Below, in pieces: positions 4,790 through 62,568 of a DNA stretch of 64,000 bases. The position numbers were made by a program, and so were the translations under genes. Positions within the stretch are counted from its first letter, which is position 1; every line of letters begins with the position of its first letter. A model generated the notes under the pieces. The model saw only the letters and a list, made by a program, of their open reading frames with translations. It made no database searches and was not told the origin of the DNA. Source of the DNA: Deltaproteobacteria bacterium (GTDB taxonomy: Bacteria > SAR324 > JACQKK01); contig JAOUEW010000001.1 in NCBI GenBank assembly GCA_029858505.1, positions 434,001 to 498,000 on the forward strand, in the 5' to 3' direction.

Positions 4790-5226
4790 TTTAGGTTATA
4801 ATCCCCTGCCCTGCGGGCATCCGAACAGCACCCCGCCCCTTCGTGGAGGGGAAATATATCGAAGCCGGGAAGTTATGCGCTTGCTTCCTTCCAGTCTATG
4901 TTTTCCGAACGGATTCTATGTTCCATCTTTCAACCTAAGCCTTATTGTCCCTCTCCGATGGGGAGGGACGGGCGGCGCAGCCGCCAGGGAGGGGTGTTGT
5001 TCAGGAAGCAGATCGAAGCCGGGAAGTTATGCGCTTGCTTCCTTCCAGTCTATGTTTTCCGAACGGATTCTATGTTCCATCTTTCAACCTAAGCCGTATT
5101 GTCCCTCTCCGATGGGGAGGGACAGGCGGCGCAGCCGCCAGGGAGGGGTGTTGTTCAGGAAGCAGATCGAAGCCGAAAAGTGATCTGCCTGCTTCCTTCC
5201 AGTCTATGCTGTGCGAACGGAGATTT
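4790..5226. repeat. Dispersed palindromic intergenic repeat, locus A (two near-identical tandem units)
   Basis: Fills most of the gap between pbpC and tRNA-Ala. Two almost identical units of about 150 bp (about 4858-5007 and 5008-5163) share a block beginning atcgaagccg, a hairpin of the form CCCTCTCC-gat-GGGGAGGG and a second hairpin GGCGGC-GCA-GCCGCC, then AGGGAGGGGTGTTG. A partial third unit follows to about 5226, and a related half unit in the other style (CCCCTTCGTGGAGGGG) precedes at about 4830. Related copies lie at 9455-9676 and 26917-27366. No coding capacity of its own is convincing. It lies at convergent gene ends, so it may also act as a bidirectional terminator. Confidence 0.85.
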
Positions 5227-55445: not shown

Positions 55446-55519
55446 GGCAGGGTAGCTCAGCTGGTTAGAGCGTGCGATTCATAATCGCAAGGTCGGGAGT
55501 TCAAGTCTCCCTCCTGCTA
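55446..55519 (+). tRNA. tRNA-Met (anticodon CAT, elongator-like)
   Basis: Complete 74-nt cloverleaf: acceptor GGCAGGG/TCCTGCT, D-arm GCTC/GAGC, anticodon stem TGCGA/TCGCA with loop TTCATAA (CAT), T-arm GGGAG-TTCAAGT-CTCCC, discriminator A. It lacks initiator features, and the overall sequence resembles elongator Met rather than Ile-lysidine tRNA. CCA is not encoded. The following 8 kb is accessory DNA with an integrase, so this is the likely attachment site of an island. Confidence 0.93.
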
Positions 55520-55928
55520 CTTGAAATGTAAGCGCTTTTATCGGACTTGCCGCCGCAGACCCCCTCCTACTGTCCACCCTACTGTCCACTTTCACCCCCC
55601 GCTTTGCCTGTGGCTTGGGGGGAGTCTGTCCATGACGCCAACGGCGAACGGGTGATGATGAATCCCAAATCGTGGGTTTTAGGGGGGTTCTAGGTCGTCT
55701 GCTCAACCACATCGTTCTGTTATTTCAAAAGGATGGAACCTTGGCGTTCTGTTGTCTTCTGCCCTTTGCGGCCCTATCCATATAAAATGGACCGTAGGAT
55801 GGACAGTCATTTGAACGCAAGGTGGAGGAAGATTTAGGGTCCCCTCAACATCCCTTTCCTATGGGTGAAAGCCAATCTTTGGCTTTGATTTGGCTTTTCC
55901 AAAAACTTATCCTACTGATATGATGATA
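55520..55928. other. Island left margin beside tRNA-Met, with 12-bp iterons
   Basis: 409 bp without a gene. Two exactly tandem copies of CCTACTGTCCAC lie at 55566-55577 and 55578-55589; a degenerate inverted pair (TGGACCGTAGGATGGACAGT) is at about 55789-55808. Such paired short repeats close to a tRNA 3' end look like integrase arm sites. Base composition is mixed and falls towards the next gene. Confidence 0.55.
55566..55589 (+). repeat. Tandem 12-bp iterons (candidate integrase arm sites)
   Basis: Perfect tandem duplication of CCTACTGTCCAC, 46 bp beyond the tRNA-Met gene; an inverted, diverged pair lies 200 bp further in. Confidence 0.6.
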
Positions 55929-56906
55929 TCATTTGGCTTCGTTTTCGGAATAGGCTTCATCGTAGGTGTTGTCCCGCCTAAGGAAACGAGACCCCTGTAA
56001 TTGCAACAATCCTTTCAAGGCTGATTGTATCTTTTTATCCATCATCATCTCATATCCCATGTTTTTGAGGAGTTCCTCATTTCGTGGGATTAAAGCTGAC
56101 ATTTTTTGGGCGAGAAGGTATGCCTCTTCTTTCGTATTGGCCTCCTGGAGTATTTTGTTCTGCTCCTGAATGAGGTTGTCTACTTGTCCTTTAATCTTAT
56201 CCTTGCAAATGTCTTTAGTGAACTTCTCCTCCGGGAAAAGTTTTTGAATAGCCTCCAGTTTCCCTTGGATTCCTTCGTTAAGAGCACCTATGGATAAAAA
56301 ATCCTGATCGTTTATTCTGTTATATGTTTCAAGAAAACTTAGCATTTCCTTGCTTGAAACATAGCCCATGCTTTCGATCTGTTGCTTTAACTGGAGAAGG
56401 TTATCCATGGCTTCTTGGGCCGATTGCGAGTCTGTTGGGTTTTCCTCGTCGTAAAAATAGTTAGGTTTTTTAATCGATAACAGGGGGGTACTAGGTTTTT
56501 TAAACCCCAAAAAATCGGCTTGCGCGCTGATGTCTCCGGTTTCTTTTTTGAGTACCCTTCGTTTTCTCCAGACGGTAGCGACAATTTCTTCCACAAAATA
56601 TATTTCCATTGCCCCTTGCGGAGCGAGGTCCATATAAAAAGCAGACCTCAGTTGTTCAAACGCTTTCGGATCTTCCTTCCCAAAGCCATGTTTGATGATG
56701 GCCTCCTCGGAAAAAAATCCGTTTTGTTCTGCGTTCATTTTGGAAATGTTTTTCCCTCTTGGGGTTTTTGGGCCAGTACTTTTTTTGGCGTTGAGCCGAT
56801 TGGCCGCTATTTTTTCTGGAGATGTTGGCTTCTTTCTGTTTGTTGAAGAAGGATTATCCAGAAGGCTTTTTACAAATGGGATTCCTTTAATTGTAAATTT
56901 ATTCAT
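55929..56906 (-). CDS. Hypothetical protein of the STGPKT/GK family
   Basis: 325 residues. Residues 26-68 carry the pattern ANRLNAKKSTGPKTPRGK...MNAEQNGF, a recurrent N-terminal motif (N-A-x-x-S-T-G-P-x-T-x-x-G-K-x-x-S-x-x-N-A) of an uncharacterised family widespread in high-G+C environmental bacteria, which also keeps a downstream W-R segment (ATVWRKRRVLKKETG here). The rest is a helical, charged protein. G+C is much lower than the chromosome and lysine use is high, so it is horizontally acquired. The next element on the right is the 191-bp repeat array. Function unknown. Confidence 0.8.
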   Translation of the reverse strand: MNKFTIKGIPFVKSLLDNPSSTNRKKPTSPEKIAANRLNAKKSTGPKTPRGKNISKMNAEQNGFFSEEAIIKHGFGKEDPKAFEQLRSAFYMDLAPQGAMEIYFVEEIVATVWRKRRVLKKETGDISAQADFLGFKKPSTPLLSIKKPNYFYDEENPTDSQSAQEAMDNLLQLKQQIESMGYVSSKEMLSFLETYNRINDQDFLSIGALNEGIQGKLEAIQKLFPEEKFTKDICKDKIKGQVDNLIQEQNKILQEANTKEEAYLLAQKMSALIPRNEELLKNMGYEMMMDKKIQSALKGLLQLQGSRFLRRDNTYDEAYSENEAK

Positions 56907-57029: not shown

Positions 57030-59440
57030 TTATGGCCCCTGCGGATCAGGAGCCAAGCGATCTACTGCCTGCGGAACAACCCCAAAACATAAAATTAGTT
57101 ATGGAGTTGCGTCCGCAGTACGGCTGGAGACAATTTCGGGGTGCCCGAAACCGCTCTGTATATATGAGTTTTGGAGATAATTAACTCACCATTCCACCTC
57201 CTTTCTAGTTAGAACTGGGTGTCTGGCTCCTGAAGTGCAGGGGCCAAGCAATCTACTGCCTGCGGAACAACCCCAAAACATAAAATTAGTTTTGGAGTTG
57301 CGCCCGCAGTACGGCTAGAGACAATTTCGGGGTGCCCGAAAACGTTCTGTATATATGAGTTATGCGGATCATTATTCCACCATTACACCTCCTTTCTGAT
57401 TCGAACTGGGTGTCTGGCCCCTGAAGTGCAGGAGCCAAGCAATCTACTGCCTGCGGAACAATCCCAAAACATAAAATTAGTTTTGGAGTTGCGCCCGCAG
57501 TACGGCTAGAGACAATTTCGGGGTGCCCGAAACCGCTCTGTATATATGAGTTTTGGAGATAATTAACCCACCATTCCACCTCCTTTCTAGTTAGAACTGG
57601 GTGTCTGACCCCTGAAGTGCAGGAGCCAAGCAATCTACTGCCTGCGGAGCAACCCCAAAACATAAAATTAGTTTTGGAGTTGTGCTCGCAGTACGGCTGG
57701 AGACAATTTCGGGGTGCCCGAAACCGCTCTGTATATATGAGTTTTGGAAATAATTAACCCACCATTACACCTCCTTTCTAGTTAGAACTGGGTGTCTGGA
57801 TCCTGAAGTGCAGGAGCCAAGCAATCTTCTGCCTGCGGAACAACCCCCAAAACATAAAAATAGTTTTGGAGTTGCGCCCGCAGTACGGCTAGAGACAATT
57901 TCGGGGTGCCCGAAACCGCTCTGTATACATGAGTTTTGTTGATCAGTATTCCACCATTACACCTCCTTTCTGATTCGAACTGGGTGTCTGGCCCCTGAAG
58001 TGCAGGAGCCAAGCGATCTACTGCCTGCGGAACAACCCCAAAACATAAAATTAGTTTTGGAGTTGCGCCCGCAGTACGGCTAGAGACAATTTCGGGGTGC
58101 CCGAAAACGTTCTGTATATATGAGTTATGCGGATCATTATTCCACCATTACACCTCCTTTCTGATTCGAACTGGGTGTCTGGCCCCTGAAGTGCAGGAGC
58201 CAAGCAATCTACTGCCTGCGGAACAATCCCAAAACATAAAATTAGTTTTGGAGTTGCGCCCGCAGTACGGCTGGAGACAATTTCGGGGTGCCCGAAACCG
58301 CTCTGTATATATGAGTTTTGTCGATCAGTATTCCACCATTACACCTACTTTCTAGTTAGAACTGGGTGCCTGGCCCCTGAAGTGCAGGAACCAAGCGATC
58401 TACTGCCTGCGGAACAACCCCAAAACATAAAATTAGTTTTGGAGTTGCGCCCGCAGTACGGCTGGAGACAATTTCGGGGTGCCCGAAACCGCTCTGTATA
58501 TATGAGTTTTGGAGATAATTAACCCACCATTCCACCTCCTTTCTAGTTAGAACTGGGTGCCTGGCCCCTGAAGTGCAGGAACCAAGCGATCTACTGCCTG
58601 CGGAACAACCCCAAAACATAAAAATAGTTTTGGAGTTGCGCCCGCAGTACGGCTGGAGACGATCTCGGGGGCTCCCGAAATCTGTCTACTGTATATGAGA
58701 GATTTTGGAATAATTAACCCACCATTCCACCTCCTTTCTGATTCGAACTGGGTGTCTGACCCCTGAAGTGCAGGAGCCAAGCAATCTACTGCCTGCGGAG
58801 CAACCCCAAAACATAAAATTAGTTTTGGAGTTGCGCCCGCAGTACGGCTGGAGACAATTTCGGGGTGCCCGAAACCGCTCTGTATATATGAGTTTTGGAG
58901 ATAATTAACCCACCATTCCACCTACTTTCTAGTTAGAACTGGGTGTCTGGCCCCTGAAGTGCAGGAGCCAAGCAATCTACTGCCTGCGGAACAACCCCAA
59001 AACATAAAATTAGTTTTGGAATTGCGTCCGCAGTACGGCTGGAGACAATTTCGGGGTGCCCGAAACCGCTCTGTATATATGAGTTTTGTCGATCAGTATT
59101 CCACCATTACACCTACTTTCTAGTTAGAACTGGGTGCCTGGCCCCTGAAGTGCAGGAACCAAGCGATCTACTGCCTGCGGAACAACCCCAAAACATAAAA
59201 ATAGTTTTGGAGTTACGCCCGCAGTACGGCTGGAGACAATTTCGGGGTGCCCGAAACCGCTCTGTATATATGAGTTTTGTCGATCAGTATTCCACCATTA
59301 CACCTACTTTCTAGTTAGAACTGGGTGCCTGGCCCCTGAAGTGCAGGAGCCAAGCAATCTACTGCCTGCGGAACAATCCCAAAACATAAAATTAGTTATG
59401 GAGTTGCGTCCGCAGTACGGCTGGAGATGATTTCGGGGAG
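57030..59440. repeat. Array of about thirteen 191-bp tandem repeats
   Basis: Units anchored at GCCAAGC(A/G)ATCT start at 57052, 57243, 57434, 57625, 57816, 58008, 58199, 58390, 58581, 58776, 58967, 59158 and 59349; the period is 191 bp in ten of the twelve intervals (192 and 195 once each). Conserved hairpins per unit: CCAAAAC/GTTTTGG with an outer TGCGG/CCGCA stem, TTTCGGG-gtg-CCCGAAA, and TGGC-c-CCTG-aagtg-CAGG-a-GCCA. Each unit also has CACCTCCTTTCT (or CACCTACTTTCT), which is AAAGGAGGTG on the minus strand. One segment of about 45 bp occurs in at least three alternating types, while the rest is nearly constant. 191 is not divisible by three, so a continuous protein repeat is excluded. No unique spacers. 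The first unit's left flank and the thirteenth unit's right flank are degenerate. Confidence 0.95.
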
Positions 59441-59652: not shown

Positions 59653-60495
59653 CTATCCCTTTTCACCCCTCACCTTCCCCATGGTTAGGACCGAGTCCGT
59701 CAAGTCTTTCCACTTGATGCCTTTCAGTTCTTCTTCGGTCACCAGGTTATAGCGTTTAAAGGCGCTATCGGTCTTGTGTCCAGACATGGCCATGATGGCG
59801 AAGTGGTCGTTTCCGGCTAGGCGAAGATTGTTGATGGCGCAGTGCCGCAGGTCATGAAAGGTGAAATCCCCCAGCCCGGCGCGGGCCACGGCGGCAGAGT
59901 AGCCTTTACGATAATTATTGAAGGCCCGGCCATTGGGAAGCACAAACACCCGTTCCCCAAAAAAACGGGAAGGCAATTCTTTGAAGATCGCCAGCAGCCG
60001 TGGGTGCAATGGCACGATTCGACCGGTTTTATTTTTGGTGCGGGCCCCGCTCAGGCGGATGATGCCAGTCACCAAGTCTACCTCACTCCAACGCAGCTTG
60101 ATAATTTCAGAGGCCCGCATGGCCGTGTACCAAGCGGTTAGCACCACCGGCTTCAGGTGATCCGGGCAAGCCTCCAAAAGCCGGTCAAACTCGGCTTGAC
60201 CCAGCACCCTTTCGCGGACGTTATGCTCGGGAAGCCGTTTGATTTTTTCCACCGGGTTAGACTCCAGTCGGCCCATCTGCACAAACACATTCAGCATGGC
60301 ATGCAAGTAGGCCAGCTCTCGGTTGATGGTGGCCGGGCGCATGAGGGTACCCCGGCATGACACATCCGCCAGGCGCTTTTGCTTGTAATTCTCCAGATGA
60401 GCCGGGGTCAGATCCGACACCACCATGGAGCGCCCCAGGAAGTTGGAGAACACAAAATGAAAATTAGCGATGTGGCAAGGAAAACGGACTTGCAC
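59653..60495 (-). CDS. Tyrosine recombinase/integrase, probably truncated at the N-terminus
   Basis: 280 residues at most; homology begins near MVVSDLTPAHLENYKQKR (ATG 60426), so about 257 residues may be real. The C-terminal catalytic domain is complete: R in TAMRASEIIKLRW, K in the beta-hairpin TKNKTGR, HxxR in HDLRH, H in GHKTDS and the nucleophile Y in KRYNLV. The N-terminal arm-binding domain and half the SAM-like core-binding domain are missing, and the frame's first 23 codons overlap a separate HTH gene, which indicates a 5' deletion or fusion. It is the natural candidate for integration of the island at tRNA-Met. Confidence 0.8.
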   Translation of the reverse strand: MQVRFPCHIANFHFVFSNFLGRSMVVSDLTPAHLENYKQKRLADVSCRGTLMRPATINRELAYLHAMLNVFVQMGRLESNPVEKIKRLPEHNVRERVLGQAEFDRLLEACPDHLKPVVLTAWYTAMRASEIIKLRWSEVDLVTGIIRLSGARTKNKTGRIVPLHPRLLAIFKELPSRFFGERVFVLPNGRAFNNYRKGYSAAVARAGLGDFTFHDLRHCAINNLRLAGNDHFAIMAMSGHKTDSAFKRYNLVTEEELKGIKWKDLTDSVLTMGKVRGEKG

Positions 60496-60624
60496 CGGAA
60501 CACCATCACCATGCTTTATAACGAAACAGCCGTCAGGGTCGACATCGTGACCATTGACCGGCTGTGTAAACTATTCAATTGCGGGGTGGGGGATTTATTC
60601 GAATTCAAGCAGGACGAAGGCTAG
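60457..60624 (+). CDS. Small XRE-type helix-turn-helix regulator
   Basis: 55 residues from ATG 60457, preceded by GGAG at eight bases. SDVARKTDLHRNTITMLYNETAVRVDIVTIDRLCKLFNCGVGDLFEF matches short Cro/CI-like regulators of the YozG type. Helix 1 of the usual domain is largely absent because the frame begins at what is normally residue 12-15, so the protein may be shortened. It overlaps the 5' end of the integrase frame on the opposite strand by 39 bp. Confidence 0.65.
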   Translation: MKISDVARKTDLHRNTITMLYNETAVRVDIVTIDRLCKLFNCGVGDLFEFKQDEG

Positions 60625-60647: not shown

Positions 60648-61025
60648 CTAGACCTCATACACGTTTGCTTTCTGACGCCAATCGCCAGAAGGGATCACCT
60701 TGTAAGAGGGGAGCTTCAGGTTGAGCAGGTAAATTTCCGCACTGTGGCTGGAGGCCAACTGAATGGGCGTGCGGCGGTAAAAATCGGGGTGGCCCTCCAG
60801 CCTGTCCAAATTTCGGAGGATGTCTTCGTCCACCTCGTACAGCTCTCCATAGACGGCCGTGGTGCCCCGCGTGATGACGGCGGGATAGGCGCCCAAATCC
60901 ACCAGGGTGTAATGGGGGGGCGTCAGGTCTTCTTGCACAAAACGCCCCTTGGCAATCAACCGGTGATTGCTCATTCCGCGCATCAGGGAGCCATACACAA
61001 AAATGTGGAACACTTCTTCGCTCAT
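60648..61025 (-). CDS. Gamma-glutamylcyclotransferase-like protein (AIG2/GGCT fold), first copy
   Basis: 125 residues with GGAGAG seven bases before the ATG. FHIFVYGSLMRGMSNHRLI is the substrate-binding YGSL motif of the family; VDLGAYPAVI, VYGELYEVDEDILRNLDRLEGHPDFYRR includes the expected catalytic Glu region. It would act on gamma-glutamyl peptides or amines to release 5-oxoproline, or be a non-enzymatic member. Last gene of a four-gene co-directional cluster (48 bp after the unknown gene). Confidence 0.88.
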   Translation of the reverse strand: MSEEVFHIFVYGSLMRGMSNHRLIAKGRFVQEDLTPPHYTLVDLGAYPAVITRGTTAVYGELYEVDEDILRNLDRLEGHPDFYRRTPIQLASSHSAEIYLLNLKLPSYKVIPSGDWRQKANVYEV

Positions 61026-62127: not shown

Positions 62128-62568
62128 TTATGCCGGCAAAATTTCACCCAACGGGCCAAGGCCCCAGTCTATGTACCCCTGTCGCACAATTTCCACATAA
62201 CCTTGTGGTCGAGGTCCATTGCGATTTGAAATCACATAGGTCAGGCATTCATAGGTTTTTCCGTCCGCGCCCACCACCTTCACCGTTGTTTGCCGGTAAG
62301 AATTCGGAACGCCCTCTCTGCGATCCAGTTTTCTTCGCTGTTCTGCCGTAATGCCATAAATCGCACCGGGGGTTTGTTTCCCAGGGGCGGGAACAAGGGT
62401 GCATGTGGAAGGAAAGGTGAGTTTAAAGTCGTGCAACACAGCCGTTTGCACCTCTTCCACCTTCCCAAGGCGCGTCTTCATTTGCGATTTATTTAGATTG
62501 GACCCGTAGGCAAAGTACAACCAATCTCGGGGGTCATCATTCGGTATCGTGAGCATGGGTAAAGTCAT
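62128..62568 (-). CDS. Gamma-glutamylcyclotransferase-like protein, second copy
   Basis: 146 residues with AGGAGT eight bases before the start. DWLYFAYGSNLNKSQMKTRL is the YGSN substrate loop typical of gamma-glutamylcyclotransferases, followed by FPSTCTLVPAPGKQTPGAIYGITAEQRRKLDRREG, where the Glu after RR is in the catalytic position. It is only distantly similar to the copy at 60648, so the two are not a recent duplication. Lies 52 bp after the WYL regulator and is probably co-transcribed with it. Confidence 0.88.
   Translation of the reverse strand: MTLPMLTIPNDDPRDWLYFAYGSNLNKSQMKTRLGKVEEVQTAVLHDFKLTFPSTCTLVPAPGKQTPGAIYGITAEQRRKLDRREGVPNSYRQTTVKVVGADGKTYECLTYVISNRNGPRPQGYVEIVRQGYIDWGLGPLGEILPA

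Follow-up and report, generated by a model that had tools for sequence, protein, structure and literature searches.

A repeat array in a tRNA-linked island

The window, i.e. the whole stretch of 64,000 nucleotides analysed here, contains an island whose edge is a tRNA-Met(CAT) gene (55446-55520, plus strand). Its adjacency to fliG is shared by three other genera of the family, where no sequence past the tRNA aligns, in line with the original prediction, which had placed the repeats inside an island. In a related genus, the sequence past tRNA-Met (L098:1-2830) carries apparent phage tail-fibre and DNA adenine methylase genes, as judged by inspection of their translations, and the tRNA-Met site looks like an integration hotspot. 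A duplication of the tRNA as attachment site was considered and rejected: allowing up to three mismatches, the genome has the 23-nt 3' end of tRNA-Met only once, and no repeated end was found at the far boundary.

Past the tRNA lie a gene of 325 aa (55929-56906, minus strand, 41% GC), the repeat array that is our subject, and a tyrosine recombinase/integrase gene (59653-60495, minus strand). The latter matches PF00589 and is short at its N-terminus, aligning with Int_N from profile position 41 and with phrog_1 from position 199 of 611. It is probably a truncated remnant, and as such it is unlikely to maintain the array. A gene for an HTH_26 regulator of 57 aa (60451-60624, plus strand) overlaps the 5' end of the integrase gene; further along are a WYL-domain protein and an Eco57I-like restriction-modification pair. 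The island also has a pair of gamma-glutamyl cyclotransferase-like (GGACT) genes less than 2 kb apart (60648-61025 and 62128-62568). Next to the array we identified no partition or replication gene.

Tandem Repeats Finder places the array at 57033-59438, with a period of 191, 12.6 copies, 92% matches, 0% indels and a score of 3932. When the units are anchored independently on ATCTACTGCCTGCGGA, 13 starts result, from 57060 to 59357, spaced by 191 bp in ten of the twelve intervals, by 192 bp in one (unit 5) and by 195 bp in one (unit 9). Both approaches bear out the thirteen 191-bp tandem units with ten exact intervals that had been read from the letters, and the starts given then (57052 to 59349) agree with these in phase, with a shift of 8. 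Only about 0.4 of unit 13 is present, and in unit 1 the loop of the terminal hairpin is divergent. The copies are arranged head to tail, have 49% GC and are not uniform: as many as 33 positions differ between them, and columns 34-49 of the minus-strand alignment, a block of about 15 bp, exist in several clearly different versions. A covariance model of the unit has 13 matches in the array, on the minus strand, with 104-154 bits. The whole array is internal to a contig of 982 kb, in a genome of 2.79 Mb assembled in 14 contigs.

Read on the minus strand, a unit consists of the motif AGAAAGGAGGTG, ATGGTG, a stop after a few codons, and then helices 1, 2 and 3. In the representative unit u3 (57411-57601, minus strand), these inverted repeats, supported by RNA and DNA folds and by pair counts, are GAGCGGTTTCGGG/CCCGAAATTGTCTC, CTGCGGGCGCAACTCCAAAAC/GTTTTGGGATTGTTCCGCAG and GGCTCCTG/CAGGGGCC, respectively, and the Shine-Dalgarno-like AGAAAGGAGGTG is at 57577-57588 (minus strand; CACCTCCTTTCT on the plus strand). 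The claim that three hairpins per unit are kept holds: they are present in 12/12 full units, with standard pairs in 97.9% of the pair cells. In unit 9 (58558-58752, minus strand, 195 bp) helix 1 is rearranged yet still folds.

We also confirmed that the array is neither a protein repeat nor a CRISPR, as had been proposed. All six reading frames have stops (23-32 each), the longest open stretch (155 codons) is shorter than three units, and the unit length is not a multiple of three (191 mod 3 = 2). A CRISPR has short identical repeats and unique spacers; here the entire 191-bp unit repeats. The genome has its own very large CRISPR array, in which GTCGCCCCCCACGCGGGGGCGTGGATTGAAAC occurs 313 times, some 22 kb past the end of the window (L026:11980 to L027:12786, i.e. 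G000:C4:519980-540786), and it contains no spacer against the array. Like the attC arrays of integrons, the units are repeated imperfect palindromes near a tyrosine recombinase. Unlike them, they include no cassettes and no R'/R'' boxes (0 GTTRRRY and 0 RYYYAAC on both strands), and the recombinase scores 27.4 bits with the IntI model TIGR02249, far from the cut-off of 265, so we rejected this identity too. Prokaryotic satellites have been defined in a survey as at least four tandem repeats of 10-200 nt and regular length (PMC6749651), which describes 12.6 copies of 191 bp; with a unit that is not a multiple of three and stops everywhere, the array also falls among the non-coding ones.

Folding of the unit and conservation of its stems

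The unit folds better than expected given its composition. On the minus strand (57413-57603 phase) the RNA fold has a z of -4.18 relative to dinucleotide shuffles, none of the 200 being as good, against -2.32 for the plus strand in the same phase. With DNA parameters, the values are -3.89 (minus) and -2.82 (plus). The consensus stems include seven wobbles that are G-U on the minus strand and zero that are A-C. This direction points to an RNA rather than to a DNA palindrome, with the caveat that the structure scored was itself derived from the minus strand.

Comparisons between copies give a different picture. None of the pairs in the three named helices changed on both sides among the units of the array, and pair types and covariation in the named structure are at or below those of shuffles. 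Pairing is kept by 8 of the 19 distinct stem substitutions on the minus strand, versus 7.4 expected when the same substitutions are placed at random within stems (P 0.46). Variable sites make up 18/86 positions in stems and 33/105 elsewhere (P 0.14), or 13/86 and 20/105 when the odd units u1 and u9 are left aside (P 0.57). As none of these tests is significant, the hairpins seem no better conserved than other parts of a young array. Neither compensatory changes nor a bias preserving pairing, by which a structured RNA family is recognised, was found in the array. Hence, selection on the stems is not detectable within the array, in tests whose power is low because they rest on twelve recently related units.

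The short motifs behave similarly. AGAAAGGAGGTG is intact in 8 of the 12 full units and replaced by AGAAAGTAGGTG in u7, u10, u11 and u12, and the second GGA is broken in seven units. Given these losses of the Shine-Dalgarno-like core and of the second GGA, neither the ribosome nor the CsrA decoy motif is conserved, and we rejected decoys of both kinds as an identity for the array. On the plus strand, the same motif reads CACCTCCTTTCT (exact in eight units and with one mismatch in four, between 57195 and 59312), which we take to resemble the typical 3' end region of 16S rRNA. The likeness stops at about 12 nt and is probably a coincidence rather than a sign of 16S/ITS origin. A consensus scan of both strands detected nothing like a sigma-70 promoter inside the array, and Rfam returned only tRNAs at gathering thresholds, its best weak matches having E-values of 2.3 or worse.

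Exchange among copies and the search for relatives

We showed that the units have exchanged sequence. The longest exact internal duplication, of 257 bp, extends over 57251-57507 and recurs at 58016-58272, four units away, and the four-unit offset also has the lowest mean difference between units. It is a recent internal segmental duplication. The four-gamete test fails for 101 of the 210 informative site pairs, so the units are mosaics produced by exchange. In helix 2, an A-to-T variant at column 123 of the minus-strand alignment is common only to the edge units u1 and u13, which is expected when the interior of an array is homogenised and its edges are not. The idea of a satellite-like element maintained by recombination therefore stands as far as recombination is concerned, on the mosaic variants, the duplication at the four-unit offset, the four-gamete failures and the variant common to the two edges.

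Searches for relatives of the unit covered genomes, phages, plasmids and viral contigs; relatives may exist in metagenomes. Outside the host genome, we found no copy by blastn in 41 genomes of the order (40 besides the host) and nothing with the covariance model in 52 genomes of the phylum (51 besides the host). Within the host genome neither method revealed a second locus; two weak model matches (L049, E 0.07, and L048, E 0.24) were taken as chance. Collections of phages, plasmids and viral contigs hold no relative of the unit either. A pattern of 21 positions, searched in the contigs of 84,980 species, had eight isolated matches in unrelated taxa, none supported by the model, where by our own estimate around seven are expected by chance. 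A homologue with conserved stems was thus found nowhere in these collections, an outcome that the original prediction had named in advance, together with the lack of a transcript, as damaging to its RNA reading and that does count against it. On the same contig, 360 kb sampled elsewhere contain no comparable non-coding array; the long-period repeats of that sample mostly have unit lengths divisible by three, as coding repeats would.

Origin of the array and competing explanations

We favour the view that the array is probably a private, locally amplified prokaryotic satellite in a decaying island. Its regular spacing, the marks of recombination, stem pairing at chance level, the lack of copies elsewhere in the collections searched and of promoters within the array in the consensus scan all fit this view. 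Against it stand the strong minus-strand fold, wobbles that are exclusively G-U and the presence of AGAAAGGAGGTG in two thirds of the full units; moreover, bacterial satellites above 1.5 kb are rare and the tests that detect no selection have low power. The array resembles the unique non-coding satellites described by Subirana and Messeguer (PMC6749651; PMC8161180) in being head-to-tail, regular, intergenic and unique to its genome, as are 40.1% of bacterial satellites (PMC6749651). It differs from most of them in a unit near the upper length, in strongly hairpin-forming units and in a total of 2.4 kb that puts it in the longest few per cent, only 32 of 1067 bacterial satellites exceeding 1.5 kb (PMC6749651). 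The repeats of archaeal Borgs are also intergenic, tandem and genome-specific, have partial repeats at the flanks and have been suggested to give RNAs (PMC9879509). They are perfect and A-rich, unlike the divergent units of balanced composition found here on a bacterial chromosome.

How might such a satellite arise? The founder would have been a 191-bp intergenic stretch with three inverted repeats, between the decaying integrase gene and the downstream gene on the minus strand. Its folding and wobble bias suggest that it was probably read on the minus strand as a structured RNA, either leader or intergenic. The first tandem duplication was probably produced by replication slippage, which the hairpins may have helped. 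Unequal homologous recombination and gene conversion, as the variant pattern shows, would then account for growth and partial homogenisation. Today's array would need no function, except possibly to weaken transcription reading through towards the downstream gene. The structured non-coding RNA array of the original prediction thus survives for the founder unit only, on the minus-strand fold and the minus-kind wobbles. Between copies, the lack of covariation, pairing at chance level and stems that are not significantly less variable speak against it, and a present function of the array is unsupported.

One might nevertheless speculate that the array works as RNA today, a minus-strand transcript being cut into 191-nt units whose many copies might, for instance, decoy a protein, or else ribosomes via the motif AAAGGAGGU. 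The better fold of the minus strand, the bias of the wobbles towards it, the minus orientation of both flanking genes and the frequency of AGAAAGGAGGTG are in its favour. We regard it as unlikely given that neither covariation nor a pairing-preserving bias is seen, that the Shine-Dalgarno-like core and the second GGA are so often broken, and that neither Rfam nor the collections searched contain a match. Less probable still is a more specific version, where a minus transcript of thirteen folded 191-nt units with ribosome-binding-like motifs would be a titrating decoy or an antitoxin for the 325-aa protein. The layout invites the comparison: the array ends at 57033 and the gene starts at 56906, about 130 bp away, both being read on the minus strand, just as in the type III toxin-antitoxin loci ToxIN, CptIN and TenpIN a tandem array of structured repeats lies directly upstream of the toxin gene on the same strand (PMC8860590). 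Yet, the 325-aa product has no match in Pfam, NCBIfam, PADLOC or PHROG, no relative in PDB and no match to toxins of the ToxN, CptN or TenpN type. It is, judging from its sequence, an undescribed protein family with an N-terminal STGPKT motif (IAANRLNAKKSTGPKTPRGK), for which nothing was found in the literature, and a single-sequence structure model (pLDDT 36.7) is uninformative. Relatives of its N-terminal half occur in two other genomes of the phylum and in 22 viral contigs, and none of the 22 or of the two has a comparable non-coding array beside the gene. Repeat units of at least 30 bp in the viral contigs have only three lengths, 30, 105 and 291 bp, each divisible by three, and these repeats lie away from the gene. 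Members of this gene family thus do not normally come with such an array, which speaks against a type III pairing. Known type III antitoxin repeats are of roughly 35-50 nt, and the 191-nt units are several times too long. On the minus strand, the consensus scan, which covers sigma-70-like promoters and GC-rich terminators, detected no promoter ahead of the array, nor a terminator between it and the gene. A locus in which tandem RNA antitoxin units precede the 325-aa gene as their toxin is the least probable of the explanations that we considered.

Two further explanations would do without a functional RNA. The units might be DNA sites bound by a protein, i.e. a centromere-like array of the sopC/parS type, or sites at which a former plasmid or integrative element replicated or recombined. 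Palindromes in many copies beside an integrase, in a tRNA-linked island, would suit such an array, and sopC of the F plasmid also consists of 12 tandem copies, of 43 bp. It is nonetheless improbable, on a par with the titrating decoy: partition and replication genes were not identified nearby, the integrase is without its N-terminal part, integron boxes are missing from both strands, and the wobble bias suits RNA better than DNA palindromes. Slightly less probable again is that the number of copies or the order of the mosaic is partly a product of the assembly of a real array of a different size. Units that exceed short reads in length and match each other at 92%, in an assembly of 14 contigs, make this conceivable, but the array is well inside a large contig and its units are told apart by many variants, which seldom survive in collapsed assemblies.

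Long non-coding satellites are rare in bacteria. If the array is such a satellite, it shows that local tandem amplification and concerted evolution can mimic a designed RNA locus, and it provides a worked case for telling the structure of a founder from structure under selection. Should it turn out to be transcribed and required, it would represent a new class of repeat RNA. The window contains a second non-coding tandem repeat, at 4858-5221 near a tRNA-Ala, with 2.4 copies of 154 bp and a sequence apparently unrelated to that of the array.
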